Positions 853 through 54,390 of a DNA stretch of 64,000 nt are shown piece after piece. The notes under the pieces are model-generated. The model was not told the DNA's origin. It did not search any database and worked only from the letters and a program-made list of their open reading frames with translations. Source of the stretch: Spirosoma foliorum (GTDB lineage: Bacteria > Bacteroidota > Bacteroidia > Cytophagales > Spirosomataceae); assembly GCF_014117325.1 (NCBI RefSeq), contig NZ_CP059732.1, positions 2,803,001 through 2,867,000 on the forward strand, written 5' to 3'. How positions within the stretch are numbered: the stretch's first letter is position 1; the number at the start of each line of letters is the position of its first letter. Both the position numbers and the translations under genes were made by a program.

Positions 853-957
853 TAATGGATAATGATTAATAGACAATGGATAATTAATGCCAATCGCAAG
901 ATCTCATTATTCATTGCTCATTATCCATTGTTCATTAATCATTATCCATTATCCATT
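853..957. repeat. AT-rich inverted repeat directly before a start codon
   Basis: Arms at about 853-885 and 919-951 match at about 30 of 33 positions and consist of words such as AATGGATAATGATTAAT and their complement. The rest of the gap repeats the same words. The unit fills the whole space between the upstream stop codon and the ATG at 958. The purine-rich arm comes first. Confidence 0.75.
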
Positions 958-3651
958 ATGCCTCCACCCCGCCTAGCTGACCGCCTGTTAAACTGGTTCT
1001 GCGCTCCTCACCTTCGGGAAGAGGTGCTTGGGGACCTGCATGAACGCTATGCGTTGCGCGTAGCTCGAGAAGGGGAAACCCAGGCCCGACGGCGTTACTG
1101 GCGGGAAGTGATGGCCTATGTGCGGCCTTCGGTGATTAAACGACAACCAGCAAACCAGGGGCCTACTGAATATCAAGCTCCAACAACTACTGATATGATA
1201 CGAAATTATTTCAAAATTGCCTTTCGAACCTTAAGTCGGCACAAGCTGTATACCGCCCTAAATGTAGCTGGACTGACTCTTGGAATTACTTGTTTTTTGC
1301 TGATTGGCTTATACCTTTTCGATGAGCTGACGTTCGATCAGCAGCACAGTCGGGCAAACCGGATTTACCGGGCTATACAACATAAGAAAGCACCTGCCGA
1401 AGACTTGACGATTGCGGCAGCGAGCTATAAAGTGGCCGAGGCCGCAACGAAAAGTATTGGCGAAATTGAGAAGTCAGCCCGAATTGTCCGAACGGGAAGA
1501 GCTAATCTATCGAATCCAGAAAATAAGAACATGTTTCAGGAGACGATTGCATTTGGTTCGCCAAGTTTGTTAGAAATGTTTGATTTTGAGACTGTTGATG
1601 GGAGTGGTAGATCGGCGTTGAACGAGCCAAATTCGATCATAATCGTTGAAGAGTTGGCACAACGACTTTTCAATAGTACCCATGTTGTTGGCAAAACCGT
1701 TGATTTTGAAATCAATAAGCAGCTGAAAATAACGGCTGTTCTGAAAAACCATCCTCGAAATTCGAGTTTCGATTTCAACGCAATCATTTCCGAAGCGACC
1801 GTCAGCAACGATGAGGATTTTGCAGAATGGACAGCCAATTGGGATTCCCAAACCTTCATGACCTTCTTTCTTCTCAAGGAAAAAGCTAATCCGGAAATTG
1901 CGGCCAAAAAAATTACGGATTTGCTCAATGCCAACGCCAAGCTGGAGCCCGGAAACTCCATCAGCTATACATTGCAACCGCTGGCCGATATTCACCTGTT
2001 CTCAGATGCCATTACCGATGGTGCCCGAAACTCGAATGTAGAAGCAATGAGTCAGGGAAGCCTCCTGTATATCAAAATCTTTGCACTCGTTGCCCTGTTT
2101 GTTCTCCTCATTGCCTGCATTAATTACATGAATCTGGCCACGGCCCGAGCGTCTAATCGGGCGAAGGAAATTGGCGTTCGGAAAGCCAGTGGGGCATTCC
2201 GGTCTCACCTCATTCAGCAGTTTCTGACCGAATCGCTGCTTGTAACGATACTCTCGTTTCTGGTGGCCATCGTGTTCGTCAATCTATTACTCCCTGCCTT
2301 CAACAAATTTACCCATAAAGAACTCTCGTTGGATTTTAACAGCGATTACCGAATTTGGCTCTATAGCCTGCTTGCGGTTGGTATCGCTGGTTTTTTATCA
2401 GGCAGCTACCCCGCCTTTCTCCTGTCGGGGTTCAGCCCGCTTCTGTTGCTGAAGAACCTTAAACTTCAGAACCGGGGAGATTTGTCGTTGCGAAAAGGGT
2501 TGGTCGTTTTTCAATTTACGATATCGGTAGTCATGATGATTGCCACCATCGTGCTGTTCCAGCAGGTTCAATTTGCGAACGATAAAAATCTGGGTTTCAA
2601 TAAAAAATTACTGCTGGTTGTAGATATCAACAGTGGTAAAGTGCGCAGTAGTGCCGAAACTATAAAAACGGAATTTAGTCGAATACCAGGTGTCAATCAG
2701 GTGTCAGTTACGTCCAGAGTACCGGGCGAATGGAAGGTCATTCCAACGGTTCAGGTTAAAACTCAGGAAAGCACCAATGAGCCTAAAGTTGCCTACTGGA
2801 TTGGTGCCGACGAAAACTTTGCCAAAACCTTTGAGATTCAACTGCTGGCGGGTCGAAATTTTAAGGGAATGGATGATTCTACCTCCGTCATTCTCAACGA
2901 ATCGGCGGCCAAACTGCTCAATATTAAAGAGGTATCGGGTCAACAAATAGACATTCCTTCCCGAGCGATGGGCGGGAGTTATAGACCGCTGAATAAGGAA
3001 AATCAGCCTTTTCATGCACGGATTATTGGCATCGTAAAGGACTTCCATTTTCAATCGCTTCGCGAAAAAATTGCCCCGATGGTTTTGGCCTATCAGCGCA
3101 ATCCGGTGCATAATATTGATTATTTCACCGCACGAATTGAGGGCAAAGATATTCCAGCGACCTTGGTCCAAATGAGGGATGTGCTGGCTAAAATTGACCC
3201 TACGCATCTGCTGGAATATCATTTCCTGGATGAGCAACTGGCTCGCTTCTATGCCGAAGACCAACGACGGGAGACGTTGTTGATCTGGGTTGCCTTGGTT
3301 ACGATTTTCATTGCCTGTCTGGGGCTATTTGGTCTGGCAACCTATGCCGCCGAACAACGCATTAAGGAAATCGGGGTGCGGAAAGTACTGGGAGCGGGTG
3401 TGATGAATCTTACCGCTTTGCTCTCGAAAGATTTCCTGAAACTGGTTTTAATTGCCAATGGTATTGCCTTTCCGATAGCCTGGTGGGCCACCAATCAATG
3501 GCTGAACGAATTCGCCTATCACATTCAGGTTGAATGGTGGGTGTTTTTGCTGGCGGGTATTTTGGCGCTGGCCATTGCCCTGACAACTGTTAGTTATCAG
3601 GCAATTAAAGCCGCTTTAGTGAATCCGGTTAAATCGCTACGATCGGAATAA
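958..3651 (+). CDS. ABC transporter permease with permease prefix domain
   Basis: This is an 897-residue inner-membrane protein. Residues 1-60 form a soluble permease prefix domain (LADRLLNWFC...). The permease proper begins near residue 80 with MIRNYFKIAFRTL, where ordinary family members start. Two MacB_PCD/FtsX repeats follow: first helix about 100-120, FtsX helices from about 370, second periplasmic domain from about 515, last FtsX block from about 773 with EIGVRKVLGA. I chose ATG 958 over an in-frame upstream ATG at 862, because the extra 32 codons read through the inverted repeat and the paralogue at 3740 starts at the same MPPPRLADR. The transported substrate cannot be told from sequence. 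Confidence 0.92.
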   Translation: MPPPRLADRLLNWFCAPHLREEVLGDLHERYALRVAREGETQARRRYWREVMAYVRPSVIKRQPANQGPTEYQAPTTTDMIRNYFKIAFRTLSRHKLYTALNVAGLTLGITCFLLIGLYLFDELTFDQQHSRANRIYRAIQHKKAPAEDLTIAAASYKVAEAATKSIGEIEKSARIVRTGRANLSNPENKNMFQETIAFGSPSLLEMFDFETVDGSGRSALNEPNSIIIVEELAQRLFNSTHVVGKTVDFEINKQLKITAVLKNHPRNSSFDFNAIISEATVSNDEDFAEWTANWDSQTFMTFFLLKEKANPEIAAKKITDLLNANAKLEPGNSISYTLQPLADIHLFSDAITDGARNSNVEAMSQGSLLYIKIFALVALFVLLIACINYMNLATARASNRAKEIGVRKASGAFRSHLIQQFLTESLLVTILSFLVAIVFVNLLLPAFNKFTHKELSLDFNSDYRIWLYSLLAVGIAGFLSGSYPAFLLSGFSPLLLLKNLKLQNRGDLSLRKGLVVFQFTISVVMMIATIVLFQQVQFANDKNLGFNKKLLLVVDINSGKVRSSAETIKTEFSRIPGVNQVSVTSRVPGEWKVIPTVQVKTQESTNEPKVAYWIGADENFAKTFEIQLLAGRNFKGMDDSTSVILNESAAKLLNIKEVSGQQIDIPSRAMGGSYRPLNKENQPFHARIIGIVKDFHFQSLREKIAPMVLAYQRNPVHNIDYFTARIEGKDIPATLVQMRDVLAKIDPTHLLEYHFLDEQLARFYAEDQRRETLLIWVALVTIFIACLGLFGLATYAAEQRIKEIGVRKVLGAGVMNLTALLSKDFLKLVLIANGIAFPIAWWATNQWLNEFAYHIQVEWWVFLLAGILALAIALTTVSYQAIKAALVNPVKSLRSE

Positions 3652-3653
3652 AT

Positions 3654-3739
3654 AATGGATAATTTAGAATGAACAATTCTTCGGGCTAAAACAGACTCCC
3701 CACCATTCATTATTCATTATTCATTATTCATTATCCATT
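3654..3739. repeat. AT-rich inverted repeat directly before a start codon
   Basis: An AATGGATAAT-type arm at 3654-3677 is matched imperfectly (about 19 of 24) by repeated CATTATTCATTATCCATT words that end at 3739. The next base begins the ATG of the following permease. The word family is the same as at 853-957, 29650-29745 and 44364-44453. Confidence 0.65.
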
Positions 3740-6388: not shown

Positions 6389-6398
6389 TCATTTCCCT

Positions 6399-6428
6399 CG
6401 TAGAGACAGGGTATGCCCTGTCTCTACG
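6399..6428. repeat. short perfect inverted repeat
   Basis: The 13-bp arms CGTAGAGACAGGG (6399-6411) and its complement (6416-6428) are perfect, with a 4-base loop, 10 bases after the permease stop codon. There is no T-run, so a standard intrinsic terminator is not certain. Read-through control between the permease and the kinase is possible. Confidence 0.7.
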
Positions 6429-6492
6429 AATTCATCCACTCCATTTCATCCCATTTTTCGGCTCGTTCAACCCATTTCCTCATATGGCTTGT

Positions 6493-6540
6493 GCGTCCCG
6501 CCTAGTTTTGGTCAAAAATCAACCAAACCTATGCGGGACG
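6493..6540. repeat. inverted repeat that contains the start codon of the kinase gene
   Basis: The arms start with CGTCCCGCCTAG (6493) and end with TATGCGGGACG (6540), matching at about 17 of 19 positions. The ATG of the following gene (6531) lies inside the 3' arm. Folding of the mRNA would bury the start codon. Confidence 0.6.
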
Positions 6541-8171: not shown

Positions 8172-8218
8172 GCAATTCTATTGATTCTGTAGATTCTTGG
8201 GATTCTATTAATGTTCTT

Positions 8219-8248
8219 GTGGTGTCAGGTTGAAGAACCTGACACCAC
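8219..8248. repeat. perfect 13-bp hairpin (GTGGTGTCAGGTT family)
   Basis: The arms GTGGTGTCAGGTT (8219-8231) and its complement (8236-8248) have a 4-base loop and lie between the kinase and the small ORF. Related GTGTCRGGT arms occur near 10300 and 23302. Confidence 0.7.
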
Positions 8249-10257: not shown

Positions 10258-10297
10258 TGTTGATTATCAATTGATTATTGATTTTTTGTGAATGAGT

Positions 10298-10408
10298 GTG
10301 GTGTCGGTTTCTAAAACCGACACAGGGAGGTTTCTCAAAACCTACTTTTGCCTTCTGACGAGTTTTTAAGAAACCTCGCCGTGGCAGATGCTTACATCTG
10401 ACGCCACA
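10298..10408. repeat. cluster of short inverted repeats
   Basis: Three nested or adjacent hairpins are visible: GTGTCGGTTT with its complement (about 10301-10323), a GAGGTTTCT / AGAAACCTC-type pair around 10328-10378, and GTGGCAGATG with CATCTGACGCCAC (about 10381-10408). The same kinds of arms (GTGTC-GGT and TTAGGTTTCT) reappear at 23302-23375. Together with the next element, the 356-base gap 10258-10613 holds only such repeats. Confidence 0.55.
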
Positions 10409-10433
10409 ATGGAAATCACGAAACGCTATTTAT

Positions 10434-10560
10434 CGTGAATTTTGGAGGATTTACGAATAGAATTATACTAGTTTTTTGTCATCCCGACATTAGGAGGGAT
10501 CTTCGGTAAATAACCAGTTGCCCAAGATCCCTCCTGACGTCGGTATGACAAAAAATAACA
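10434..10560. repeat. dispersed repeat element, copy A (36-bp flank plus hairpin)
   Basis: A 36-base flank at 10434-10469 is identical, in reverse complement, to 15014-15049. It is followed by a hairpin with arms about 10471-10503 and 10524-10556 (TTTTTTGTCATCCCGAC...GGAGGGATCTT) and a 20-base loop containing GTAAATAACCAGTTG. The second copy at 14917-15049 has nearly the same loop. The TCATCCCGAC..GGAGGGATC arm type is, as I recall, widespread in Bacteroidota genomes. Confidence 0.85.
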
Positions 10561-12249: not shown

Positions 12250-13629
12250 ATGATTGCTCAACAGGAAGATAAAGAACTCGCCCGCTGTCGTCGGTTAATT
12301 GAGGAGAAAATAGGCTGGGGGAGAAGCGACAACTGGTCAACTCAGGACTTTGAGCGATTGGGTGAACTGATTGCCGATGAAACGGGGATCTCGCTCAGCG
12401 TGACAACACTCAAGCGGGTGTGGGGGCGTGTGCGGTACGATTCGGCACCCACTGCCACGACCCTTAATGCGCTGGTTCAGTTTATCAACTATGAGAGTTG
12501 GTCGCGTTTTAAAGACGTTTCGATCCATGACGCACCACAGGATGCACAGGTATTTCAGCCGCCTGTTAGCCTGACCGAACATATTGATGAACGGGTAACG
12601 ACAGCCTCTAAATCAGCAGACAAAACACGTCGTTTATCGGGTAAAGGGTGGTGGATTGGCGCGGGATTGCTTGTTGGTTTACTGAGTGTTCTCGCGTTTT
12701 TTCTGAAAGATGCTACTCCTAAACCGCTCTCCCCCAAAGACTTTTCATTCAGTAGTCAACCAGTGGCGAAAGGGCTTCCCAATTCAGTCGTTTTTCATTA
12801 CAATGCCACCGCTTCGCCCACCGATTCGGTGTTTATTCAGCAATCGTGGGACCCTAGCCGACGCGACCTGGTACCTAAAAACGGCCACGAATACACGTCA
12901 ATTTATTACTCACCCGGCTACTATCGGGCCAAGCTGGTGATTGGCAAGCAGATTGTGAAGCAACACAACCTGTTGATTCCATCGGATGGCTGGCACGTGG
13001 CTGTTTTTTGGACACCGGTTCCAATCTATTTTAAACCCGATGACGTGACTCGAAAAGGAGTCCTGGGTTTGTCGGTTGAGGATATGAAGAAACGTAATAT
13101 TCCGGTGCAACCTCAGCCTCCAACGGTACTTTACCGGTATGTGCGGGAGTTTGAACAGCTTAATGCCAAAAATTTTGTATTCGAGACGCGGGTCAGAAAT
13201 GATTTTGAAAAAGGCTCCTCGGCTTGTCAGTATATACGGATAATGGTTCTGTGTAAGAACCAATATTTCTCCATTCCATTGTCGGCAAAAGGCTGCATTG
13301 GTAATCTGAATCTGTACTTGGCTGGTCATGAGGCAGAAGCCAAGACGACCGATTTATCTAATTTCGGAGCTGATTTGTCGAAATGGGTAGACGTTCGGTG
13401 TGAAGTCAGAAACAAGCGTGTACAGCTCTTTGTGGGTGATAAAAAAGCCTATGAAGCTATAGCGCCTAATGCCTTTACCGATGTTGTAGGCGTCAGCTAC
13501 GAATTTGAAGGCACCGGCTCCGTTGATTATGTTCGTTTTAAGCGATTGGACGGAACGATGGCTTTTGAAGATAATTTTGATTCATCAAAGGATTTAAACA
13601 CAGGGGCACAGGGGAATAAACAGCGCTGA
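12250..13629 (+). CDS. putative membrane-anchored regulator: HTH-like domain, TM helix, LamG-like domain
   Basis: This is a 459-residue protein. Residues 5-85 have the pattern FERLGELIADETG-x-SLSVTTLKRVWG...TLNALVQFINYESW, an N-terminal domain I have seen in Bacteroidota proteins and read as HTH-like. One membrane helix lies near 135-152 (WWIGAGLLVGLLSVLAFF). About 300 residues on the far side of the membrane end in a beta-sandwich resembling the LamG-like proteins encoded next door (VFETRVRNDF, SKWVDVRCEVRNKRVQLFVG). The layout recalls ToxR/CadC one-component regulators. DNA binding and control of the divergent operon are inference. Confidence 0.7.
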   Translation: MIAQQEDKELARCRRLIEEKIGWGRSDNWSTQDFERLGELIADETGISLSVTTLKRVWGRVRYDSAPTATTLNALVQFINYESWSRFKDVSIHDAPQDAQVFQPPVSLTEHIDERVTTASKSADKTRRLSGKGWWIGAGLLVGLLSVLAFFLKDATPKPLSPKDFSFSSQPVAKGLPNSVVFHYNATASPTDSVFIQQSWDPSRRDLVPKNGHEYTSIYYSPGYYRAKLVIGKQIVKQHNLLIPSDGWHVAVFWTPVPIYFKPDDVTRKGVLGLSVEDMKKRNIPVQPQPPTVLYRYVREFEQLNAKNFVFETRVRNDFEKGSSACQYIRIMVLCKNQYFSIPLSAKGCIGNLNLYLAGHEAEAKTTDLSNFGADLSKWVDVRCEVRNKRVQLFVGDKKAYEAIAPNAFTDVVGVSYEFEGTGSVDYVRFKRLDGTMAFEDNFDSSKDLNTGAQGNKQR

Positions 13630-13631
13630 TG

Positions 13632-13742
13632 GCGCGAACGTCTACGTTCGTGCCGACTATTCTCCGGCCTCTGGCTTGAGTAGTGAATGCATAAGTCGGC
13701 CAGAGGCCGGAGAATAATCAGCACGAACGTAGACGTTCGCGC
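13632..13742. repeat. long composite inverted repeat, 44-bp arms
   Basis: The arms at 13632-13675 and 13699-13742 match at 42 of 44 positions with a 23-base loop. The outer part reads GCGCGAACGTCTACGTTCG and the inner part CTCCGGCCTCTGGC. The inner part recurs in the inverted repeat at 32518-32675 while the outer part does not. It starts two bases after a stop codon. There is no T-run. Confidence 0.9.
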
Positions 13743-13772
13743 TATCCTAAACCATCATAACTGCGTTATAAA

Positions 13773-14916: not shown

Positions 14917-15049
14917 TTATACTGTATTTTCTGTCATCCCGACGTCAGGAGGGATCTTTTGTAAATAACCAGTTGCCGAAGATCCCTCCTGACGTCGGGA
15001 TGACAGAAAATACAGTATAATTCTATTCGTAAATCCTCCAAAATTCACG
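14917..15049. repeat. dispersed repeat element, copy B (perfect 42-bp hairpin plus 36-bp flank)
   Basis: The arms 14917-14958 and 14979-15020 are identical over all 42 bases. The 20-base loop shares AAATAACCAGTTGCC with copy A at 10434-10560. The flank 15014-15049 is the exact complement of the copy A flank, so the two copies face each other about 4.4 kb apart. The rest of the 365-base gap (14748-15112) shows nothing else I can name. Confidence 0.9.
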
Positions 15050-18783: not shown

Positions 18784-19272
18784 ATGCAGACCGCGATTCG
18801 CTGGGCGTTATGTATCATAGGGATCGAAATCCTTTTTTTAGTGGCTTTTCGGGCTGGGCTTTTAGCTATTGTGCCGCCTTTAGCAGCTTCCTGCATCTTA
18901 TTGGCTGCCAATCCGCAGGGAATGTTTGCGCGGCCTGTAACTGTACTGACTGCCTATATAGTGGTGGGACACCTGGGGTTGATCAATAGCGTTTTTTGGG
19001 GTAATGATCTGTTTTGTCTGTTTGTGATGACGCTGCTTGTGGTCGGAATTATGGCGGCTGTTCCTTGTATTCATCCCCCAGCGGTGGCCTTGTTATTTCA
19101 TTTGGCTAATTCTTCTCACCCTTTTCAGTCATATTTAGTTACTTTGTGTCTGATGGGTGGCTTGTTAGCCCTACACCTGGCTGGCCAATGGTTTATAAAG
19201 CAATTATTTCGAACAGCCCCAGTAATACCCAGACCACAGGTGGCTACAAACTTCTTCGAAACAGTAAGGTAA
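18784..19272 (+). CDS. HPP family membrane protein
   Basis: This is a 162-residue inner-membrane protein with four or five predicted helices. The defining features are PPLAASCILLAANPQG near residue 31 and the HPPA motif in CIHPPAVALLF. HPP proteins are small integral membrane proteins, some linked to nitrite or other anion transport. The exact role here is unknown. It is followed after 20 bases by a Crp/Fnr regulator on the same strand, so it may be part of the same transcript or regulon. Confidence 0.85.
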   Translation: MQTAIRWALCIIGIEILFLVAFRAGLLAIVPPLAASCILLAANPQGMFARPVTVLTAYIVVGHLGLINSVFWGNDLFCLFVMTLLVVGIMAAVPCIHPPAVALLFHLANSSHPFQSYLVTLCLMGGLLALHLAGQWFIKQLFRTAPVIPRPQVATNFFETVR

Positions 19273-19292
19273 ACGAAACGTTACGTTTCAAT

Positions 19293-19901
19293 ATGGATAA
19301 TCAATCTCCCATAGCGGGCGATAATACTGCCCTGTTTAATCCGCTATTCAGTTATCTGCGTCTCTTTAAGGCTATTCCATCGGCTGATGTTGAGGTGATT
19401 AAACGAGAGTTAGGGTATCGCAACGTAGCGGAAGGAGAATATCTACTGAAAGAGGGGACTGTGGCGACGAATCTGTTTTTTATTTGTGATGGCGTTGTTC
19501 GTATTGTCACCCAGAATGAACAGGGGCGGGAACTAACGCATTATTTCCTGAAGGAAAACCAATTGGTAACCATTCTGGATAGTTTTAACCGGGCTGTTCC
19601 GGCTAACGAAAGCATTCTGGCGGCTTGTCCCACCCAGGTGATTGTGCTGCCTAAACGCAGTTTACTGGTCCTCTACGAACGCTTTCCCTACCTGAAAGAA
19701 CTAATTGAAAAACTGACCCAGCAGACGCTCCTCTACAAAATTCAAATCCGGAATGCCTATTTAGGTGAAGATGCCATGACGCGTTACCAACAGTTTTTGA
19801 TTCGTCAGCCAGAGATCGCTTTACGAGTATCCTTGCAAAGTATTGCTTCCTATTTAGGAATTACGCAACAATCGCTGAGCCGAATTCGGAGGAATAGTTG
19901 A
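19293..19901 (+). CDS. Crp/Fnr family transcriptional regulator
   Basis: This is a 202-residue regulator. ATG 19293 is chosen because the upstream in-frame extension to 19146 overlaps the HPP gene. Residues about 25-130 are a cyclic-nucleotide-binding-like beta-roll (EGEYLLKEGTVATNLFFICDGVVRI). The C-terminus is a short winged helix (SLQSIASYLGITQQSLSRIRR). There are no clustered cysteines, so it is not an iron-sulfur FNR. The last five codons lie inside a perfect 31-bp hairpin. The ligand is unknown. Confidence 0.92.
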   Translation: MDNQSPIAGDNTALFNPLFSYLRLFKAIPSADVEVIKRELGYRNVAEGEYLLKEGTVATNLFFICDGVVRIVTQNEQGRELTHYFLKENQLVTILDSFNRAVPANESILAACPTQVIVLPKRSLLVLYERFPYLKELIEKLTQQTLLYKIQIRNAYLGEDAMTRYQQFLIRQPEIALRVSLQSIASYLGITQQSLSRIRRNS

Positions 19902-19957
19902 TACATACGCCATATCTCCAAAGATATGGCGTATGTATCAACTATTCCTCCGTTTTT
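19887..19957 (+). terminator. perfect 31-bp hairpin with T-run, overlapping the Crp/Fnr 3' end
   Basis: The arms 19887-19917 and 19922-19952 are perfectly complementary with a 4-base loop (CCAA), followed by TTTTT at 19953-19957. The form is that of a very strong intrinsic terminator. The first arm includes the last four sense codons and the stop codon of the regulator. Confidence 0.85.
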
Positions 19958-20791: not shown

Positions 20792-20880
20792 ATTTTTTGT
20801 CATTCCGACGCCAGGAGGAATCTCAAGCTTGACTGATACAGGGCTTCGAGATTCCTTCTAGCGTCGGAATGACAAAAAAT
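20792..20880. terminator. inverted repeat between convergent genes, likely bidirectional terminator
   Basis: The arms 20792-20824 and 20848-20880 match at 31 of 33 positions (ATTTTTTGTCATTCCGACG...). The A- and T-rich outer ends give a T-run in both directions between the SDR and GH92 genes. The arms are diverged relatives of the GTCATCCCGAC element at 10434 and 14917, but the loop and flank are different. Confidence 0.8.
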
Positions 20881-23199: not shown

Positions 23200-23301
23200 T
23201 TTTTGAAGGAAAATCCATTGACTCTGATACTGGGGTAAAAAGGTACGAAAACCTTTCGGAAAGCTAAGCGGGAAGCACATGTTGGTGATGTTTGACGTGG
23301 T

Positions 23302-23375
23302 GTCAGGTGCTAACACCTGACATTTTAGGTTTCTAAAAACCTACTGTTAATACCTATAGGTTTTAAGAAACCTAA
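23302..23375. repeat. two short inverted repeats upstream of the GH92 gene
   Basis: GTCAGGTG with CACCTGAC (23302-23321) is followed by TTAGGTTTCTAAAAACCT (23325-23342) paired with 23358-23375 at about 17 of 18 positions. Both arm types also occur near 10300-10380. They lie in the 350-base divergent gap between the GH92 and efflux operons. Confidence 0.6.
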
Positions 23376-23417
23376 GGTGTCGGTTATGAGTAATCGACAT
23401 CACTTAAGCGACTAGAC

Positions 23418-27156: not shown

Positions 27157-28404
27157 ATGTTAGCCAACTACATCAAAATCGCCTGGAAGGTGTTGCTTCG
27201 GCATCCGTTCTTCACCTTTATTACCCTTTTCGGCATTAGCCTGACACTGACTGTGTTGATGGTGCTGACCTCGTTTCTGGATCACTTGATTGGCAGTCAT
27301 TATCCTGAAACGAAGCGGGATCGATCGCTCTACATCATGACCATGGAGCAACGGGATTCCAGTATGACATCCCGCAGTTCGGGACCTATGAGTTTTAAGT
27401 TTCTGACGGAACATGCCAAGTCACTGAAAACGCCGGAGCGGGTTGCCATCAGTACACTGATCAATAGTTCGAACGCCTATGTAGGCTCGCAGAAAATCAA
27501 ACTCAATACCAAATTTACCGATGCCGATTTCTGGCGAGTCGCCGACTTTGAATTTCTGGAAGGTAAGCCCTACAATGAACAGAATATGGCCAATGGCGAC
27601 AACGTGGCCGTCATTACCGATGATTTTAAAAAGCACTATTTTGGCAATGTTACCGAGCCCGTTGTTGGTAAGACTGTTGAAATCGAAAACATTCATTACA
27701 AGATAATTGGCGTCGTAAAGGCCAGTCCCGTTACCCGCCCGTTTACCTATGCCGATGTTTTCTTTCCGTATACATCTCCCAAAAGCAATTACCAGAACAC
27801 CAGTATGCGGGGTGGCTATGTGGCAATGATCCTGGCTAAGGATAAATCGGATTTTAAAGCCATTCAGGATGAGTTTCAGGGGCACATTAATCGCATTCCG
27901 TTACCCGGTATTCAGGACGGATTTAAGTATGCCACATTGAATGTGAAGAGCGAGCCCTATTTGCAGAATTTTCTGGGCAGTATTCTGGACGGTAATCCGG
28001 GCATAAAGGCTATCTTTTTTGGGGTAATTGGGTTTGTGCTGTTTATGCTGATGGGCCTTCCGGCCATCAATCTGGTAAACATCAATGTCAGTCGCATTAT
28101 GGAAAGAGCCTCCGAAATCGGTATCCGAAAGGCATTTGGTGCACCTGTACGAACGCTGGTCTGGCAGTTTATTATCGAGAACGTCTTCATTACGTTCATT
28201 GGCGGGGCCATCGCTTTAGTCCTGACACTGATTGTTATTCATCTGATCAACACCAGTGGCATGATCGCCTACGCCGACCTGACCATCAACCTGAGTGTGT
28301 TCCTGATCAGCCTCCTGGTATGCCTGATTTTCGGGCTTTTATCAGGCGTACTACCCGCTCTCCGCATGTCGAAACTAAGCATTGCTGAAGCGCTCAAATC
28401 TTAA
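27157..28404 (+). CDS. ABC transporter permease (FtsX/MacB type)
   Basis: This is a 415-residue inner-membrane permease with one N-terminal helix (PFFTFITLFGISLTLTVLMVL), a periplasmic MacB_PCD domain at about 45-270 and three C-terminal FtsX helices. The motif GIRKAFGA lies in the cytoplasmic loop. ATG 27157 is preferred, because an upstream in-frame ATG at 27082 would only read through the inverted repeat. It is half the length of the permeases at 958 and 3740 and probably dimerises with the next permease. Confidence 0.93.
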   Translation: MLANYIKIAWKVLLRHPFFTFITLFGISLTLTVLMVLTSFLDHLIGSHYPETKRDRSLYIMTMEQRDSSMTSRSSGPMSFKFLTEHAKSLKTPERVAISTLINSSNAYVGSQKIKLNTKFTDADFWRVADFEFLEGKPYNEQNMANGDNVAVITDDFKKHYFGNVTEPVVGKTVEIENIHYKIIGVVKASPVTRPFTYADVFFPYTSPKSNYQNTSMRGGYVAMILAKDKSDFKAIQDEFQGHINRIPLPGIQDGFKYATLNVKSEPYLQNFLGSILDGNPGIKAIFFGVIGFVLFMLMGLPAINLVNINVSRIMERASEIGIRKAFGAPVRTLVWQFIIENVFITFIGGAIALVLTLIVIHLINTSGMIAYADLTINLSVFLISLLVCLIFGLLSGVLPALRMSKLSIAEALKS

Positions 28405-28486
28405 AGAGCGAAAGAGTGAATGAGTGAAAGAGCGAAAAGGCTGGATCACTTGGCCACTCTTTCGCTCATTCACTCTTTCACTCTTT
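28403..28486. repeat. inverted repeat of GAGCGAAAGAGTGAATGA words before an ATG
   Basis: The arms 28403-28435 and 28454-28486 match at about 30 of 33 positions. The first arm begins in the stop codon of the upstream permease and ATG 28491 starts four bases after the second arm. It is a close sequence relative of 27065-27152. Confidence 0.8.
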
Positions 28487-28490
28487 AATT

Positions 28491-29753: not shown

Positions 29754-31127
29754 ATGCTCCTCATCATCGACGACGATATTGCTATTCAGACTTCACTTTC
29801 CTTGTTGTTTCGGAAAGAAGGATTCACCGTGCGACTGGCCGATGGGCCGTTTGAAGCCTTTGAAGTTCTGAATGAAGAAGTGCCGGAATTGATACTGCTG
29901 GATATGAATTTCTCGGTCGATACCTCTGGCGATGATGGCCTTCGGTTACTGCGCCGGATTCGGGAGCGGCTGCCTAACGTGCCGGTAATTCTGATTACCG
30001 GCTGGGGAAGTATCGACCTGGCGGTAGAAGGCATGAAGTCGGGAGCGAAAGATTTCATTACCAAACCCTGGCAGAATGACCACCTGCTGCAATCGGTTCG
30101 GACGGCGCTGAATCTGGCCCAGTCTGTAGCCGCATCGCCCAATCGACGAAAGCTTGATCAGCAGTTCCGGTTCGATAATATCGTTGGGGAGGACCCGAAT
30201 TTACTGGATATTCTGACCACCATCGGGCGTGTGGCCCCAACCGACGCGCCTGTACTGATTACGGGTGAAAGTGGTACGGGGAAAGAACTCATTGCTGAGG
30301 CCATTCACCAAAATAGTCGCCGGAAACGCCACCCATTCGTGAAAGTCAATTTGGGCGGTATATCATCCACTTTGTTTGAGAGTGAACTGTTTGGCCATGT
30401 ACGCGGGGCATTTACGGATGCCAAAACCGATCGGATAGGACGCTTTGAACTGGCCAACAAAGGCTCCATTTTTCTGGACGAAATTGGCGACCTTGACCCT
30501 GCCAGCCAGGTTAAGCTGTTGCGTGTTTTACAGGATCGGACGTTTGAGCCACTCGGAAGCAGCAAATCCCGAACGGTTGATGTACGGGTCATTTGTGCCA
30601 CCAACCGCAATCTGGAAGAGATGGTCAGTAAAGGTCAGTTTCGGGAAGATTTGTTTTATCGAATCAACCTCATTACGGTTCGGCTGCCTGCCTTGCGGGA
30701 GCGGCCTGGGGATATCCCGTTGCTGGTCAATTACTTTGTCGACAACTTAAAAACCATTTACAATCGCCCAGACTTGCGAGTGGGTGCCGTGGCGCAGAAG
30801 TGGTTGAAAAACCTGGCTTTGCCGGGTAATATCCGTCAGTTAAAGAATGTGGTTGAGCGAACCGTTCTACTCTCAGCCAACGACGAGTTACAGGTTGAGG
30901 ACTTTGAGCGCAACCTGACCTCCGCGCCTAACCCAATGCCCTCTTCCCAAACCTCTTTGCCACAAATAGGCACGATGACGCTGGAAGAGATGGAATACCA
31001 GATGATTCACCGGGCAATGGCTTTTCATCAGAATCGGGTTGCCAAAGTAGCCAGGGCATTAGGCATCACCCGTTTTGCACTCTACCGTCGATTAGAGAAA
31101 TTTGGAATTCCGTATGCGGAAGAGTAG
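29754..31127 (+). CDS. NtrC-type sigma-54-dependent response regulator
   Basis: This is a 457-residue activator. The receiver is at 1-125 (IIDDDI; phospho-acceptor in LILLDMNFS; TGWGS; KPW). The AAA+ domain is at about 145-375 with Walker A GESGTGKE, a loop reading GAFTDA where GAFTGA is usual, and Walker B GSIFLDEIGD. A Fis-type HTH closes the protein (ARALGITRFALYRRL). It activates RNA polymerase carrying RpoN. It lies at the end of the efflux gene series, whose first gene has a -24/-12-like promoter, so self-regulation of the operon is likely. Confidence 0.95.
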   Translation: MLLIIDDDIAIQTSLSLLFRKEGFTVRLADGPFEAFEVLNEEVPELILLDMNFSVDTSGDDGLRLLRRIRERLPNVPVILITGWGSIDLAVEGMKSGAKDFITKPWQNDHLLQSVRTALNLAQSVAASPNRRKLDQQFRFDNIVGEDPNLLDILTTIGRVAPTDAPVLITGESGTGKELIAEAIHQNSRRKRHPFVKVNLGGISSTLFESELFGHVRGAFTDAKTDRIGRFELANKGSIFLDEIGDLDPASQVKLLRVLQDRTFEPLGSSKSRTVDVRVICATNRNLEEMVSKGQFREDLFYRINLITVRLPALRERPGDIPLLVNYFVDNLKTIYNRPDLRVGAVAQKWLKNLALPGNIRQLKNVVERTVLLSANDELQVEDFERNLTSAPNPMPSSQTSLPQIGTMTLEEMEYQMIHRAMAFHQNRVAKVARALGITRFALYRRLEKFGIPYAEE

Positions 31128-31230
31128 CCTGGACGGCCACGTCCGGGTAAACGCTCACAGGATGCACTGCTTGCAAAAGTGAGCTAAGTGCAAATCTCAC
31201 AAATTCACCCGGACGTGGCCGTCCAGGCTA
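31125..31230. repeat. inverted repeat, TAGCCTGGACG family, copy 1
   Basis: The arms 31125-31151 and 31204-31230 match at about 25 of 27 positions (CTGGACGGCCACGTCCGGG). The regulator's TAG stop codon is the first three bases of the unit, and the kinase ATG at 31235 follows four bases after it. A related unit lies at 44701-44780. Confidence 0.85.
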
Positions 31231-31234
31231 CCTG

Positions 31235-33555: not shown

Positions 33556-33619
33556 TCGTCAACTAACGCAGTCAGTTAAGCTCAATAAACGTAGAGCGAT
33601 CCTAGAGTGACCTAATTTG

Positions 33620-40743: not shown

Positions 40744-40897
40744 AGTCGCGTAGCGACGAAATGTTTATAGAAATTTGTGAAGAGAACTGGTTCGCGCGCC
40801 GTCAGGTACGCAATGTTCACCTCAAGTTGCGTACCTAACGGCACGCTCAGCACCCAATTTAGCATGTTCCTATAAACATCACGTCGCTAACGCGACT
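40744..40897. repeat. nested inverted repeat after the sigma-factor gene
   Basis: Outer arms AGTCGCGTAGCGACG...TTTATAGAA (40744-40772) and its approximate complement (40867-40897) enclose inner arms of CGTCAGGTACGCAA type (40794-40813 and 40827-40846). There is no T-run. Apart from this unit, the 358-base gap 40672-41029 shows nothing I can name. Confidence 0.7.
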
Positions 40898-44468: not shown

Positions 44469-44741
44469 ATGCGAAAGGGGTATATCGGTCTTGGTTTGGC
44501 ATTTGTTGCTGTTTGGGTTTCGGCCTGGACGGCTGCCGATGGACCTGTGCCAACTGGGCCATATATGCTGCATTACCCTGCGTCGTTTGGTGGGCGGTTT
44601 ACTATCCCTGCTGATAATCCAACAACACAGGAAGGGGTTTATCTGGGGCGACTATTGTTCTATGAACCCCGGTTGTCTTCTACCAAAACCATTATTTATA
44701 GTAGCCTGGACGTCCACGTCCGGGTGAGTAATTGTTCTTAG
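44469..44741 (+). pseudogene. N-terminal fragment of a di-haem cytochrome c peroxidase
   Basis: This ORF encodes a 90-residue fragment: signal peptide (GLAFVAVWVSAW) followed by PADNPTTQEGVYLGRLLFYEPRLSSTKTI, the conserved lead-in to the first haem-binding CxxCH of the MauG/CCP family. Instead of the expected CASCH, the frame runs into the arm of the inverted repeat at 44701 and stops at 44741. The rest of the gene is missing. It is probably non-functional. Confidence 0.8.
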
Positions 44742-44780
44742 TAATCTTAATTTTCACCCGGACGTGGACGTCCAGGCTAC
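44701..44780. repeat. inverted repeat, TAGCCTGGACG family, copy 2
   Basis: The arms 44701-44727 and 44754-44780 are perfect over 27 bases (GTAGCCTGGACGTCCACGTC...). The unit differs from copy 1 at 31125 by a G/T change in the centre of the arm and by a much shorter, unrelated loop (26 against 52 bases). It lies precisely at the break of the peroxidase gene and ends one base before the modA start at 44782. Confidence 0.92.
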
Positions 44781-44781
44781 A

Positions 44782-45525
44782 ATGGATATGAAAAGACTAA
44801 CCCTTCTCCTTCTTCTGCTTCCCATAACTCTGTTCGTTCAGGCACAACCGCTGCGGGTGGCGGTGGCGGCTAATGCACAGTTTGTGATGGTGCAATTGAA
44901 AACGGCGTTCCAGAAAAAGACGGGCATTGAGGTAGAATCGATCGTCAATTCGTCAGGCAAATTGACAACCCAAATTCAACAGGGTGCTCCTTACGATATC
45001 TTTTTGTCGGCGGATATGGAGTATCCGCAAACACTCCACAAAGCCGGACTCACGGTGGCAGCGCCGGTAATCTACGCCTATGGATCGCTGGTGTTGTGGA
45101 CGCTGACGGATTTACCGCTATCGACCAATTTGAAAATACTCTCCGATCCGGCGGTTCGGCATGTTGCCATCGCCAATCCAGCCACGGCTCCCTATGGCGA
45201 AGCGGCTGTTTCGTTGCTGAAACATAAAGCGTTACTGGATCAGGTGCAACCTAAAGTTGTATACGGTGAAAGCATTGCGCAAGTGAATCAATACATTCTG
45301 TCGGGAGCGGCAGAGGTAGGCTTCACGGCCAAATCGGTAGTGCTCGACCCTAGTTTGACGAAGCGCGGTCACTGGATTGATTTGCCGACAACGGGTTATT
45401 CGCCCATTGCGCAGGGCGTAGTCGTGTTGAAACGGACTACAATCCCTAAAGAGGCTGAGCAGTTCATGGCGTTTTTGCGTAGCCCACAGGCCCGGCGTAT
45501 TTTGCAACAGTTTGGGTATCATTGA
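44782..45525 (+). CDS. modA: molybdate-binding periplasmic protein ModA
   Basis: This 247-residue solute-binding protein has a signal peptide ending near VQAQP. The class II binding fold carries VAVAANAQFVMVQL, GIEVESIVNSSGKLTTQIQQGAPYDIFLSAD and VKPQ-like QPKVVYGESIAQVNQYI. The SSGKL and SADM segments surround the oxyanion site. ATG 44782 lies one base after an inverted repeat arm; 44788 is an alternative. It delivers molybdate to ModB (45638) and ModC (46300). Confidence 0.95.
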   Translation: MDMKRLTLLLLLLPITLFVQAQPLRVAVAANAQFVMVQLKTAFQKKTGIEVESIVNSSGKLTTQIQQGAPYDIFLSADMEYPQTLHKAGLTVAAPVIYAYGSLVLWTLTDLPLSTNLKILSDPAVRHVAIANPATAPYGEAAVSLLKHKALLDQVQPKVVYGESIAQVNQYILSGAAEVGFTAKSVVLDPSLTKRGHWIDLPTTGYSPIAQGVVVLKRTTIPKEAEQFMAFLRSPQARRILQQFGYH

Positions 45526-45631
45526 AAAGGAAGAAAGGAGGAGAGGGAGGAAGGGGAGGAAAGGGCAAGTCGATAGTTTTTTGCTCTTTCCTCTCTTCCC
45601 CTTCTTCCCTTTCATCCCCCTTATCCCTTTT
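45525..45631. repeat. purine/pyrimidine inverted repeat before modB
   Basis: A purine run arm (AAAAGGAAGAAAGGAGGAGAG, from 45525) is followed by pyrimidine arm words (CTCTTTCCTCTCTTCCCC...) ending about 45631. ATG 45638 comes six bases later. A related unit lies at 26283-26399. Confidence 0.6.
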
Positions 45632-45637
45632 ATATAT

Positions 45638-46303
45638 ATGCCCATCGATTGGGAGCCCATCTGGCTAACGTTGCGCTTAGCGGGTATCACGACCTTCATT
45701 CTACTCCTGATTGGCGTTCCGCTGGCGGGGTGGCTGGCACTTAGTAAATTTCGACTAAAACCAGTCATTGAGGCTATCATCAGCCTTCCGCTGGTGTTGC
45801 CTCCTTCGGTAGTTGGTTTCTATTTGCTGCTCGCGTTCAGCCCAACGAGTGCGTTCGGGGCCTGGCTATTGAAAACGGTCAATCTACAACTCGTCTTTTC
45901 GTTTCAGGGCTTAGTGGTGGCTTCACTGTTGTATAGCTTGCCGTTTATGGTGCACCCGATTCAGGCCGGATTGGAAAATTTGCCGGTTTCCTGGCGAGAA
46001 GCGTCTTACACACTAGGTCAATCGCGTAGGCGAACCTTGTGGCGGGTACTTTTACCCAATTGTAAACCTGCCTTGCTCACCGGAATTGTCCTCACATTCG
46101 CCCATACCATTGGTGAATTTGGTCTGGTGCTAATGATTGGCGGCAACCTGCCCGGTCAGACAAGAGTCGCGTCAATTGCTATCTATGATGAAGTCGAATT
46201 GCTTCATTTCGAAACAGCTCATGCCTATGCAGCGCTCTTGCTGGGTCTCTCGTTTGCTATTTTGTTGCTGGTCTATGCGATCAATAAACGCGTAACGGTA
46301 TGA
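45638..46303 (+). CDS. modB: molybdate ABC transporter permease ModB
   Basis: This is a 221-residue inner-membrane permease with five predicted helices. The EAA-type loop reads EASYTLGQSRRRTLWRVLLPNCKPALLTG near residue 130. ATG 45638 is used, because the longer frame from 45512 reads through the purine/pyrimidine repeat. ModC overlaps its 3' end by four bases (ATGA), so they are coupled. Confidence 0.95.
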   Translation: MPIDWEPIWLTLRLAGITTFILLLIGVPLAGWLALSKFRLKPVIEAIISLPLVLPPSVVGFYLLLAFSPTSAFGAWLLKTVNLQLVFSFQGLVVASLLYSLPFMVHPIQAGLENLPVSWREASYTLGQSRRRTLWRVLLPNCKPALLTGIVLTFAHTIGEFGLVLMIGGNLPGQTRVASIAIYDEVELLHFETAHAYAALLLGLSFAILLLVYAINKRVTV

Positions 46304-47118: not shown

Positions 47119-47144
47119 ACCAACGTGAATCAGCTTAGGTGGAA

Positions 47145-47672: not shown

Positions 47673-47677
47673 ACTAG

Positions 47678-50521: not shown

Positions 50522-50540
50522 CCGCACGGGCGGCCCCGCG

Positions 50541-50647
50541 GGATTTTTGTGATTTTACTGACCGACTATGATTTTAATAACATGAAAAAGCTTTCAAAGA
50601 AAGCGAAGCAAAGAAATCATAGTCGGTCAGTAAAATCATAAAAATCC
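50541..50647. terminator. inverted repeat between convergent genes
   Basis: The arms 50541-50574 and 50614-50647 match at 33 of 34 positions (GGATTTTTGTGATTTTACTG...), with a 39-base loop. It sits between the photoproduct lyase and DoxX genes, which converge. The T-rich and A-rich ends suit bidirectional termination. Confidence 0.85.
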
Positions 50648-50651
50648 AGGT

Positions 50652-51086: not shown

Positions 51087-51157
51087 ACCTGTAAGCATTT
51101 AGTGAAAACTAATCGAATCTACAGATATGGTAACTGAAAAACAAGCTGATTGTTAGT

Positions 51158-51259
51158 GGTTTAAGGTATTCGGTTTGCGGTCTTTGGTATACGATAAAAT
51201 GAGTTGTTTCGGCTTAATTAGTTCTGACGGTAGTCACCGTAAACCGAATACCTTAAACC
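51158..51259. repeat. inverted repeat near DUF779 3' end
   Basis: The arms 51158-51181 and 51236-51259 match at 23 of 24 positions (GGTTTAAGGTATTCGG...), with a 54-base loop. It lies between the DoxX and DUF779 genes, with the DUF779 stop codon at 51263 just beyond the second arm. Confidence 0.75.
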
Positions 51260-51262
51260 GTT

Positions 51263-51643
51263 TTAAACTTCCTCCAAAGGCCCAACATGAACGGGCAGCA
51301 GCTTCGCATATTCATCGTCGTCAAAGAGTCTTGACCGAATCAGAAACCGAACGCCCAGTGGAATTTCGAGCGAAAAACTTGCTCCCCGTCCACGGGTCAC
51401 ATCGACGGTTAAGTGGGTATGTTGCCAATACTCAAACTGGTCGCTCGACATCCAGAAGTCGCAACCATCAATTTGCCCGAGCAACACATCCGACGAACCA
51501 ATAATAAATTCGCCCACGGCATAACACATGGGGGAGGAACCGTCGCAACAACCGCCACTCTGATGAAACATGAGCGGTCCATTTTCAGCGCGGAGTTTAC
51601 TGATAATCTCGGCAGCCGCCGGAGTGAGGTCTATTCTGTTCAT
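51263..51643 (-). CDS. DUF779 domain protein
   Basis: This is a 126-residue protein of DUF779 with the conserved cysteine-rich segment FHQSGGCCDGSSPMCY near residue 27 and an H-containing WQHTHLTVDVTRGRGASFSLE motif near 75. Members commonly sit beside aldehyde dehydrogenases, as here. A role in dealing with aldehydes or the enzyme's cysteine is possible, but the function is unknown. It is probably co-transcribed with the dehydrogenase through an 89-bp gap that is wholly an inverted repeat. Confidence 0.9.
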   Translation of the reverse strand: MNRIDLTPAAAEIISKLRAENGPLMFHQSGGCCDGSSPMCYAVGEFIIGSSDVLLGQIDGCDFWMSSDQFEYWQHTHLTVDVTRGRGASFSLEIPLGVRFLIRSRLFDDDEYAKLLPVHVGPLEEV

Positions 51644-51644
51644 A

Positions 51645-51733
51645 GTTAATGAGTGATTGAATGACTAAGTGATTGAATGATTGAATAGACACATGCGCCA
51701 GCCATTCAATCACTTAGTCATTCAGTCATTAAT
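51645..51733. repeat. inverted repeat filling the gap between aldehyde dehydrogenase and DUF779
   Basis: Words of GAGTGATTGAATGACTAAG type (51645-51686) pair with ATTCAATCACTTAGTCATTC (51704-51733). The unit starts two bases from the DUF779 ATG (51643) on the minus strand and reaches the first base of the dehydrogenase stop codon. Purine-first order is seen on either strand, as in the others. Confidence 0.75.
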
Positions 51734-53247: not shown

Positions 53248-53362
53248 GGTTTAAAAGGATTTATGTGATTTAATTAGCTTCTTCACAAATTTTGCCGAAA
53301 TTGTACAATTATAATTGCGTTATAATCTCAAATACTTACGGAATCGTCCCATCCTCAAACGC

Positions 53363-54298
53363 ATGAAAAGTATAGGAAAAGGTAGTACGAATGGAGCCGT
53401 CAGCGCGTGGGGAGCACGGTTGGATACGCTGGTAGAGAATAAGTTAACCCTTAGTCATGACGAAGCCGAGCTGCATTTATACGAGACATTTCAGCAAGCC
53501 GATCTGATTCAACTACGGTTCAATGCGCCCGTAATGACCAGCATGTTGAGCGGCCGGAAAGTGATGCATCTGCGCGAAATGGACCCGTTCGATTATCAAC
53601 CCGGAGAATCATTGCTGTTACCTTCCGATCGGCTGATGCAGATCGATTTTCCGGATGCAACCACCGACGATCCGACACGTTGCCTGGCCCTAACGATATC
53701 CGACGAGTTTATCCGGGAAACCATTGCGGAGTTGAATGAGAACATTCCGCGGGTAGAAACAGTGGATCAATGGCAGCTGAGTACGGATAATTATCTATTA
53801 CAAAACGACCCGGAAATCAGCTCGTTACGGGATAAACTCATTCGGTTATTTCGGGAGAACAACCCATTCAAAACGTTTTTTATTAAGAATACCCTGCGCG
53901 AACTGATTGTCCGACTTTCACAAACGCAGGTACGAACCGGCTTGCTGTTGCATACGAATCAGCATATAAATACGAATCGGCTGGCGTATATCGTGACGTA
54001 TATTCGGGAGAATATCACGCGTAATTTATCGGTAGAGGAATTGTGCGATAAAGCCTGTCTTTCAAAATCTCACTTTTTCCGACTTTTCAAAAGCGAACTG
54101 GGTGTCTCTCCGGCTCAATTCATTCTAACGGAGCGTATTCGTCGGGCTAAAACTATCCTCAGCAATCCAGCTAAAACCATTACAGATGCCTGCTACGAAT
54201 CGGGCTTTAACAGTGTGACGCATTTCAGTAGCGCGTTTCGGTCCGTAGAGAACATATGCCCCCGCCAATTCAAACGGCAACTCTCAGGGCTGAACTAG
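53363..54298 (+). CDS. AraC-family transcriptional regulator
   Basis: This is a 311-residue regulator. The N-terminal region about 10-180 matches the AraC_N-type ligand-binding pattern (LREMDPFDYQPGESLLLPSDRLMQIDFPDA). The C-terminal HTH pair is at about 220-305 (EELCDKACLSKSHFFRLFKSELGVSPAQFILTERIRRAKTILSNP). Divergent to the aldehyde dehydrogenase with a 115-base gap, it probably controls that operon in response to an alcohol or aldehyde. A TTG start at 53315 would add 16 residues. Confidence 0.92.
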   Translation: MKSIGKGSTNGAVSAWGARLDTLVENKLTLSHDEAELHLYETFQQADLIQLRFNAPVMTSMLSGRKVMHLREMDPFDYQPGESLLLPSDRLMQIDFPDATTDDPTRCLALTISDEFIRETIAELNENIPRVETVDQWQLSTDNYLLQNDPEISSLRDKLIRLFRENNPFKTFFIKNTLRELIVRLSQTQVRTGLLLHTNQHINTNRLAYIVTYIRENITRNLSVEELCDKACLSKSHFFRLFKSELGVSPAQFILTERIRRAKTILSNPAKTITDACYESGFNSVTHFSSAFRSVENICPRQFKRQLSGLN

Positions 54299-54299
54299 G

Positions 54300-54390
54300 A
54301 ATGAAGTATGTAGGATGTATGATGTAGAATATAGGATGTACTGATTCCGCGTCAACTATATCATACATCATACATCATACATACTTCATT
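54300..54390. terminator. inverted repeat between convergent genes
   Basis: GAAGTATGTAGGATGTATGATG-type arm words (54300-54332) pair at about 30 of 33 positions with 54358-54390. The stop codon of the minus-strand gene (54386-54388) lies within the second arm. No T-run is present. Confidence 0.75.

Follow-up and report, generated by a model that had tools for sequence, protein, structure and literature searches.

The hairpins described here fill many of the gaps between genes in a 64,000-nucleotide stretch of the Spirosoma foliorum genome and are best compared with two systems that are already known. One is the intervening sequence (IVS) of 23S rRNA. In Coxiella, this element has terminal inverted repeats forming a 28-bp stem, an open reading frame (ORF) for the S23p protein in its loop and tandem degenerate heptamers before the ORF; it is excised by RNase III, and its function is said to be unclear (PMC4990558). 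S23p, or IVP, is a four-helix protein for which the same report cites a homopentameric crystal structure, and the function of the corresponding family PF05635 is stated there to be unknown. The other system consists of repetitive extragenic palindromic (REP) sequences and their doublets, REPINs, which are extragenic hairpins in convergent and co-directional (unidirectional) gaps close to gene 3' ends, dispersed non-autonomously and associated with a hairpin-flanked partner gene, RAYT (PMC3116915, PMC3733652). For GTAG repeats, PMC3733652 lists phyla other than Bacteroidetes; it also lists Y1 genes whose flanking terminal repeats are unrelated. The window, by which we mean the whole stretch analyzed here, corresponds to bases 2803001-2867000 of the 8.85-Mb single-contig genome.

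Heptamers in gene gaps have a history of their own. Cyanobacterial STRR heptanucleotide repeats are degenerate 7-mers located between genes. TAACTGA heptamer direct repeats, which are intergenic and often lie just before starts, have a patchy occurrence in Beggiatoaceae, Cyanobacteria and five Bacteroidetes, with no mechanism evident (PMC4679880). The latter differ from the arrays reported below in that they are direct (with one indirect set) and consist of one fixed heptamer, and the portion of that report on which we rely mentions no linked protein.

In this report, we propose, with a probability of about 0.7, that of the 27 strong hairpins in the window, 15 or more are mobile repeats, dispersed and non-autonomous, that are tolerated at gene ends: a REP/REPIN-type class that would go with Y1 transposase genes, and a word-type class, with arms of degenerate 7- or 8-base words, that would be helped by PF05635 proteins. 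The first class fits the features of REP/REPIN listed above. The second differs, since its partner would be PF05635 rather than Y1, and its arms are low-complexity 7/8-mers rather than GTAG/CGTC palindromes.

Results

Two kinds of hairpin recur between genes

Scanning for ungapped inverted repeats (match +1, mismatch -2, loop 3-80, strong at a score of at least 14) yielded 27 strong hairpins in the window, close to the approximately 32 counted in a first-pass annotation of the same DNA. There are 111 in a 464-kb genome sample, made of the window and 20 evenly spaced 20-kb stretches, as opposed to a mean of 1.0 in two dinucleotide shuffles. RNA folding of eight selected hairpins gave energies of -29 to -71 kcal/mol, with z-scores of -4.4 to -12.4. 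We sorted the 27 into 10 word-type hairpins, 5 REP/REPIN-type hairpins, 2 that are terminator-like (39462 and 60854) and 10 that are unassigned. Over half of the intergenic hairpins in the window thus resemble copies of small mobile repeats, which are of two kinds. The sorting rule for the word type was a self-match at lag 7 or 8 together with a GC skew of either sign; nine of the ten were assigned by this rule and one by eye. An eleventh word-type hairpin (45537-45617), with a score of 13, falls below the scan threshold.

Word-type arms have a consistent polarity. Among 85 hairpins with arms of at least 18 nt in the 464 kb, 20 were sorted as word-type, and in every one of these the 5' arm has more G than C. 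This is a better wording of the first-pass annotation's observation that the purine-rich arm comes first, which holds. Because an inverted repeat keeps its arm order on the other strand, this word-type rule is independent of gene direction. The self-match at lag 7 is 0.54 in word-type arms and 0.28 in other hairpins, a difference that is partly due to selection. Loops of the word-type hairpins in the window are approximately 20-72 nt and contain no ORF. The word-type hairpins are the following.

847..957: TAATGGATAATG, period 7, between two FtsX/MacB permease genes; no cognate PF05635 gene in own genome
3652..3741: ATAATGGATAATTTAG; no cognate PF05635 gene in own genome
26289..26390: GGAGGAAGGGG, outer-membrane efflux to ABC ATPase gap; assigned by eye, the arm being too short for the rule; word matches PF05635 locus L102
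27064..27153: GAGCGAGAGAATGAATGAG, period 4/8, ABC-macB1 gap; another word in congeners G014 and G009; no cognate PF05635 gene
28401..28488: GAGCGAAAGAGTGAATGAG, period 8, macB1-macB2 gap; weak match to PF05635 locus L103
29648..29748: ATGGATAATGTAAAATG, period 7, macB2-response regulator gap; no cognate PF05635 gene in own genome
44355..44453: ATGGATAATGTAAAATG, upstream of a small ORF preceding modA; no cognate PF05635 gene
45537..45617: GGAGGAGAGGGAGGAAGG, modA-modB gap; assigned by eye, score 13; word matches PF05635 locus L102
51158..51259: GGTTTAAGGTATTCGGTTTGCGGT, one of 35 GGTNTNN places in the genome; cognate PF05635 locus L101
51646..51736: TGAATGACTAAGTGATTGAATG, period 8, between two minus-strand genes; word matches PF05635 locus L105
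54300..54390: ATGTAGGATGTATGATGTAG, period 7, convergent gap; weak match to PF05635 locus L104

The REP/REPIN-type hairpins are the following.

13628..13746: REP/REPIN-type, GATGGCGCGAACG...GGCCTCTGGC; congener G016 has an 18-nt gap without hairpin; matches flanks of Y1_Tnp locus L264 (E 0.003)
31124..31231: REPIN-type, two inverted GTAGCCTGGACG...CCGGGT copies, response regulator-kinase gap; Y1_Tnp locus L262
32518..32675: REP/REPIN-type, GATGGCGCGAGGCCGGG...; Y1_Tnp locus L264 (E 3e-10)
40751..40889: REP-type, TCGCGTAGCGACGAAATGTTTATAG; Y1_Tnp locus L258 (E 1e-5)
44693..44788: REPIN-type, second copy of the GTAGCCTGGACG family, overlapping the end of a putative small ORF, 44469-44741

PF05635 genes lie between arms built like the word-type hairpins

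The genome of S. foliorum has eight PF05635 matches, seven of them over the curated cut-off. Loci with PF05635 genes were gathered by domain searches, homology and a scan of named genomes (the best 80 of 576); of 148 loci, 13 were dropped (8 duplicates, 3 for length and 2 for short flanks), which left 135 distinct ORFs with usable flanks. Flanking inverted arms reach at least 12 at 85 of the 135 loci (14 of 27 in the genus and 71 of 108 elsewhere) but at only 4 of 263 control windows taken 1 kb away at these loci; at a threshold of at least 14, the counts are 70 and 1. The armed loci are from Bacteroidota, with single ones or a few from Chlorobiota, Ignavibacteria, Desulfobacterota, KSB1 and Omnitrophica. 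In one cyanobacterial genome, neither of two PF05635 matches, one of which is on a short record, has flanking arms.

These arms are composed of short tandem words, like those in the window. Among 60 arms of at least 20 nt, the best period is 7 in 43, 8 in 14 and 9 in 3; the self-match at lag 7 is 0.63 as compared with 0.31 after shuffling, and the median arm is 28 nt. The arm with G>C comes first at 66 of the 70 loci with arms of at least 14. No Rfam rRNA match was found at any of the 20 loci tested, and one locus (L219) has a match to the Flavo-1 sRNA. Four congeners (G003, G009, G015 and G018) have a PF05635 match inside the macB2-regulator gap, which is 459-568 nt long in these genomes and has, by eye, G-rich and C-rich ends. 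Solved relatives of the protein, 2gsc and 2rld, have five chains each.

The PF05635 elements share with the 23S rRNA IVS the S23p ORF, the terminal inverted repeats enclosing it and the heptamers. They differ in lying between protein-coding genes, with several genes per genome that have different words, and in the ORF-less hairpins that are dispersed at gene ends, those of the word type in the window having no ORF in the loop. Since we found neither an rRNA site nor a Y1 partner, we file the word-type class as REPIN-like in its working and IVS-like in its build, and as a member of neither group. A search of open-access papers showed no description of intergenic PF05635 elements, of gene-less copies of this architecture or of Spirosoma inverted repeats, subscription papers being outside the search.

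Words tend to go with protein lineages, and two are dispersed as hairpins

Related PF05635 genes tend to share a word, and this word tends to be dispersed as gene-less hairpins in the genomes carrying the gene. PF05635 copies within one genome, such as those in Mucilaginibacter, Flavilitoribacter and Adhaeribacter, mostly carry different words. Between loci without homologous neighbours, arm similarity is at least 0.5 in 13 of 17 pairs with at least 60% protein identity, as compared with 62 of 2260 pairs below 60%, the pairs not being independent; the Mantel r is 0.14, a value reached in 3 of 2000 permutations. Among the window hairpins, clear matches to PF05635 words of the same genome are seen at 26289, 45537, 51158 and 51646, and none is seen in nine hairpins outside the word-type class.

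Two words illustrate the dispersal. For three consecutive TGAGANN units, the Mucilaginibacter genome carrying the cognate gene yields 158 matches, with overlaps included in the count, and six other genomes yield none; the corresponding search with TTAGANN is less exclusive, with matches in four of the seven genomes and control hits in some. Twenty selected TGAGANN stretches were read, with two long arrays and some other places left aside. The gene itself lies between two hairpins; of the 19 stretches outside it, 11 hold 14 hairpins (score at least 13, loops 13-107 nt), several of which are between neighbouring ORFs, and 8 hold none. The second word is GGTNTNN, surveyed in 36 genus genomes including that of S. 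foliorum (35 congeners). At least 16 hits occur in all six genomes with an L101-type protein at 50% identity or more and in 4 of the 30 others (hypergeometric p 1e-4, Mann-Whitney p 2e-4, both free of phylogenetic correction); this identity line was drawn after seeing the table, and at 45% or more the counts are 7 of 10 and 3 of 26. S. foliorum itself has 35 GGTNTNN places, 12 with both orientations, all 12 with the G-rich one first; the window hairpin 51158-51259 is among these 12.

Long arrays at two places in the Mucilaginibacter genome (G063, C9:176423-176539 and C17:2-118) are perfect TGAGATG repeats of about 16 units, a word that is found in hairpins elsewhere.

REP/REPIN-type hairpins match the flanks of Y1 transposase genes

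Fourteen window hairpins were compared with the ten Y1_Tnp loci of the same genome, and six match at E<0.01. Five of these correspond to palindromes or neighbours of L262, L264 and L258, and those at 31124-31231 and 44693-44788 agree fully or almost fully with the repeats adjacent to L262 (25-26 nt at 96-100%); each of these two hairpins consists of two inverted copies and a spacer, as do REPIN doublets. The sixth, the word-type hairpin 847-957, matches a short stretch near L260 that is outside the palindromes of that locus. With one mismatch allowed, 25 copies of the TAGCCTGGACG half-site are found in the genome, and the half-site is present in 18 of the 36 genus genomes. GTAGCCTGGACG begins with GTAG; we assigned no tag to the other two families. 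From these sequence matches, we take the five hairpins to be REP/REPIN-type elements, each family probably having as its partner a Y1 (RAYT-like) transposase gene at another place in the genome. Y1 genes with unrelated terminal repeats may be a better model than REP for part of the class.

Hairpins differ in presence and in arms at orthologous junctions

Pfam identified in the window an operon of hlyD, oep, abc, macB1, macB2, regulator and kinase genes. In 21 genomes (S. foliorum included), five junctions of this operon give 105 cells, of which 40 have a hairpin with a score of at least 13, 9 score 10-12 and 56 score below 10. Since the scan spans at most 260 nt, longer ORF-bearing elements escape it: 3 of the 56 hold one, namely, the PF05635-bearing gaps of G003, G015 and G018, and that of G009 was counted as intermediate. 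At the regulator-kinase junction, 11 of the 21 genomes have a 4-bp overlap, corresponding to 11 of its 15 cells below 10, while the hairpins found there in S. foliorum, G014, G004, G024 and G017 have five different kinds of arm. At modA-modB, readable in 27 of 29 loci (S. foliorum included), seven have a hairpin of at least 13 in gaps of 76-159 nt, and 15 of the 20 without one have gaps of only 7-18 nt.

Hairpins sharing a gap in different species usually differ. Median arm similarity is 0.88 within a hairpin, 0.33 for the same gap in another species and 0.23 both for other gaps and for shuffled arms. The outcome that the first-pass annotation named as counting against its reading, with relatives retaining the same arms in these gaps like ordinary conserved terminators, was therefore not seen. 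Arms are swapped even between close congeners: the abc-macB1 gaps of S. foliorum (G000) and G014 have words of different families. The finding that a given junction across up to 27 genus genomes can be an overlap, a short gap or a hairpin of another family suggests insertion and turnover.

At the hlyD-oep junction of G016 and G024, CCCC-type palindromes lie just past the position of the S. foliorum start codon, so the downstream gene in these genomes must either use another start or have changed. In the macB1-macB2 gap, decayed hairpins in congeners have often lost the left arm, whereas the right one, C-rich and next to the start codon, is retained.

Nearness to start codons reflects short gaps

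The 111 hairpins are distributed among co-directional gaps (68), convergent gaps (30), divergent gaps (4), genes (2), stretch ends (6) and an overlap with a small ORF (1), where the gaps available are 226 co-directional, 54 convergent and 49 divergent; one gap can hold more than one hairpin, ORFs outside the window were called crudely (at least 90 aa) and the gene list for the window omits some ORFs. The first-pass annotation reported arms ending 0-15 nt before many start codons. This is so at 958, 3740 (where the arm overlaps the ATG), 26404, 27157, 28491, 29754, 31235, 44469, 44782 and 51643 (minus strand). At 45638, the arm ends approximately 20 nt away, and the ATG at 6531, said to lie inside an arm, is contained in no inverted repeat of at least 14, the nearest being 6398-6429.

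The special nearness to starts that had been read into these cases disappears upon counting in the 464-kb sample, an outcome that the annotation had itself named as refuting it. The arm-to-start distance is at most 15 nt for 20 of 63 co-directional hairpins, where uniform placement in the gap predicts 25.7; five of the 68 were dropped because of gaps of at least 1000 nt, partly due to the ORFs omitted from the window gene list. We therefore reject start-codon targeting: arms abut starts because the hairpin fills a short gap. Stops are the closer landmark, since 37 of the 63 hairpins begin within 15 nt past a stop codon, and 33 of 43 with at least 30 nt of slack are closer to the stop than to the start. 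The earlier observation is thus partly confirmed and its interpretation partly supported, in that its suggestion of a residue of an element at gene borders agrees with presence/absence and arm replacement at congener junctions, with the cognate transposase genes of one class and with the like-built PF05635 genes of the other.

Discussion

Starting from what is observed, i.e., the architecture and periodicity of the arms, the link between word and protein, the dispersal of two cognate words and the turnover at orthologous gaps, the word-type class can be pictured as a REPIN-like two-component mobile repeat system, which may be an overlooked family of bacterial mobile DNA. The arms, as degenerate tandem 7- or 8-base words with the G-rich one first, are built like the elements around PF05635 genes. 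A PF05635 protein would recognize its own word in an arm, in either DNA or RNA form, and would assist dispersal of the hairpin in trans, the part that RAYTs are thought to play for REPINs. Junctions of near-zero length within operons would in this way acquire a hairpin running from stop to start, and RNase III may cut the word-type stem in the mRNA. A resident reverse transcriptase was considered as the mover and rejected. RVT_1 was not found in 17 of the 36 genus genomes, including the hairpin-bearing G014, G016 and G004, so such an enzyme is not needed now.

Several points weigh against this reading. No hairpin movement has been observed, and no target-site duplications were recognized by eye at the congener operon and modA-modB junctions. 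A cognate PF05635 gene is absent from the genome for 5 of the 11 word-type hairpins in the window (847, 3652, 27064, 29648 and 44355), and 54300 and 28401 have only weak word matches. The link at the level of 12-mers is modest, as 6 of 19 word-type arms share one with PF05635 flanks, compared with a mean of 1.3 and a maximum of 5 for random gene-end sets. Arms are below threshold at 50 of the 135 PF05635 loci. Four genomes with at least 16 GGTNTNN hits (G043, G024, G020 and G048) have no cognate at 50% identity or more, and the copies in G014 and G044 (52-55%) have weaker GTTTGTAG-type arms, which are similar but not identical to the counted word. The macB1-macB2 word theme (GAGCGAAAGAGTGAATG) is recognizable in many congeners, with a decayed left arm in several, and some hairpins are therefore old and vertically kept. 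We know of no catalytic activity for PF05635. The Coxiella S23p is reported to be a protein that the cells probably do not produce in vivo (PMC4990558). In other orders (20-60 kb per genome), hairpin density shows no relation to the number of PF05635 genes, and G033 has eight such genes and no hairpin in 60 kb. A simple dose relation between the two was thus rejected.

The rival that we take most seriously, although we consider it rather unlikely, is that selection maintains the hairpins as RNA structures with a function between cistrons (RNase III sites, 3'-end stabilizers or attenuators), their arms diverging by compensatory change and intra-hairpin correction. The strong RNA folds, the scarcity in divergent gaps (4 for 49), the anchoring near stops and arms that are more alike within a hairpin (0.88) than between orthologues (0.33) are all as expected for such structures. 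REPs elsewhere, however, are placed alike (PMC3733652), 56 of the 105 junction cells score below 10, often as a 4-bp overlap, and 15 of the 27 modA-modB gaps are only 7-18 nt. Nor would selection on structure predict that word families are swapped between close relatives, as at abc-macB1, or that one cognate word is found in only one of seven genomes. The latter also argues against local growth of the word arrays through slippage and template switching (quasi-palindrome correction), with no mobile element involved, because one word is present at tens of places in one genome and at none in six others, and is linked to a protein lineage. Tandem degenerate words, identity that is higher within hairpins than between orthologues and the long perfect arrays in one genome speak for this explanation, which we nevertheless regard as improbable.

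We give no better chance to the idea that all the hairpins are ordinary REP/REPINs moved by RAYT, the word type being a degenerate REP. It accounts for the ten Y1_Tnp matches, the five window hairpins that match Y1 flanks and the similar placement at gene ends, but only one of the 19 word-type arms shares a 12-mer with Y1 flanks, and none shares a 13-mer, as opposed to six that have a 12-mer in common with the flanks of PF05635 genes. The counts for k=11 are 5 and 9, respectively. The 64 other arms show 0 sharing with PF05635 flanks and 7 with Y1 flanks at k=12. In addition, the period of 7/8 and the G>C arm in first position set the word type apart from other hairpins, and PF05635 genes of several phyla sit between word-type arms. 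Ordinary intrinsic terminators are the least probable explanation. There are 30 hairpins for 54 convergent gaps, and terminator-like sites are seen at 33619, 39462 and 60854; yet only 7% of 170 arm outer sides have at least 6 T in 10 nt, so that the build of a short GC stem and a U run is the exception, the word-type hairpins have long arms and loops of 20-72 nt, and many of the hairpins lie between genes of one operon-like run.

Mobile repeats at gene ends thus being the reading that we prefer, a broader and more tentative one, to which we would give slightly less than even odds, is that word-armed hairpins and the four-helix PF05635 proteins are the two components of one mobile repeat system, which extends through Bacteroidota and further, runs parallel to RAYT/REPIN and is either the ancestor or the sister of the rRNA IVS; in it, a pentameric ring would read one word per subunit. 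TRAP offers a precedent as it reads repeated triplets. Five words of seven bases would make 35 nt, compared with the observed median arm of 28 nt, and the G-rich 5' arm, in nascent RNA or in single-stranded DNA, is a possible target of the ring. If one word were read per subunit, each lineage would be expected to evolve its own word. Such a system would offer a possible role for a conserved protein family, suggests that the 23S rRNA IVS is one special form within a larger, intergenic family and might account for the puzzling heptamer repeats near start codons. A further caution is that a regulatory role should not be presumed for hairpins that fill operon gaps, as they can be insertions into junctions of near-zero length.

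Other features of the window

No Rfam family at gathering score and no tRNA gene were found in the window. Three further hairpin entries are listed here, the first two unassigned and the third resembling an ordinary terminator.

10472..10555, 14917-15020, 20792-20880: palindromic repeat TTTTTTGTCATCCCGAC...AGGAGGGATCTT; no match to the ten Y1_Tnp loci
50541..50647: hairpin GGATTTTTGTGATTTTACTGACC, convergent gap; hairpins in this gap in 8 of 8 genomes read, with arms partly similar
60854..60888: intrinsic-terminator-like hairpin, GCCTGCCGTTGAGTAAACGGCAGGC followed by a T run

The first of these is an abundant palindrome, TTTTTTGTCATYCCGAC...AGGAGGRATCT, with a T-tract at the outer edge of the 5' arm and an A-tract at that of the 3' arm, which is also found in the sampled stretches L056, L058-L060, L062 and L063. 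Clustered repeats of the GTGGTGTCAGGT...ACCTGACACCAC and AGGTTTCTAAAAACCT types are present at 8219-8248, about 10290-10420 and 23297-23403. Finally, a perfect 31-bp inverted repeat with a 4-nt loop (19887-19952) is located at the end of ORF 19146-19901, which encodes a cyclic-nucleotide-binding domain.

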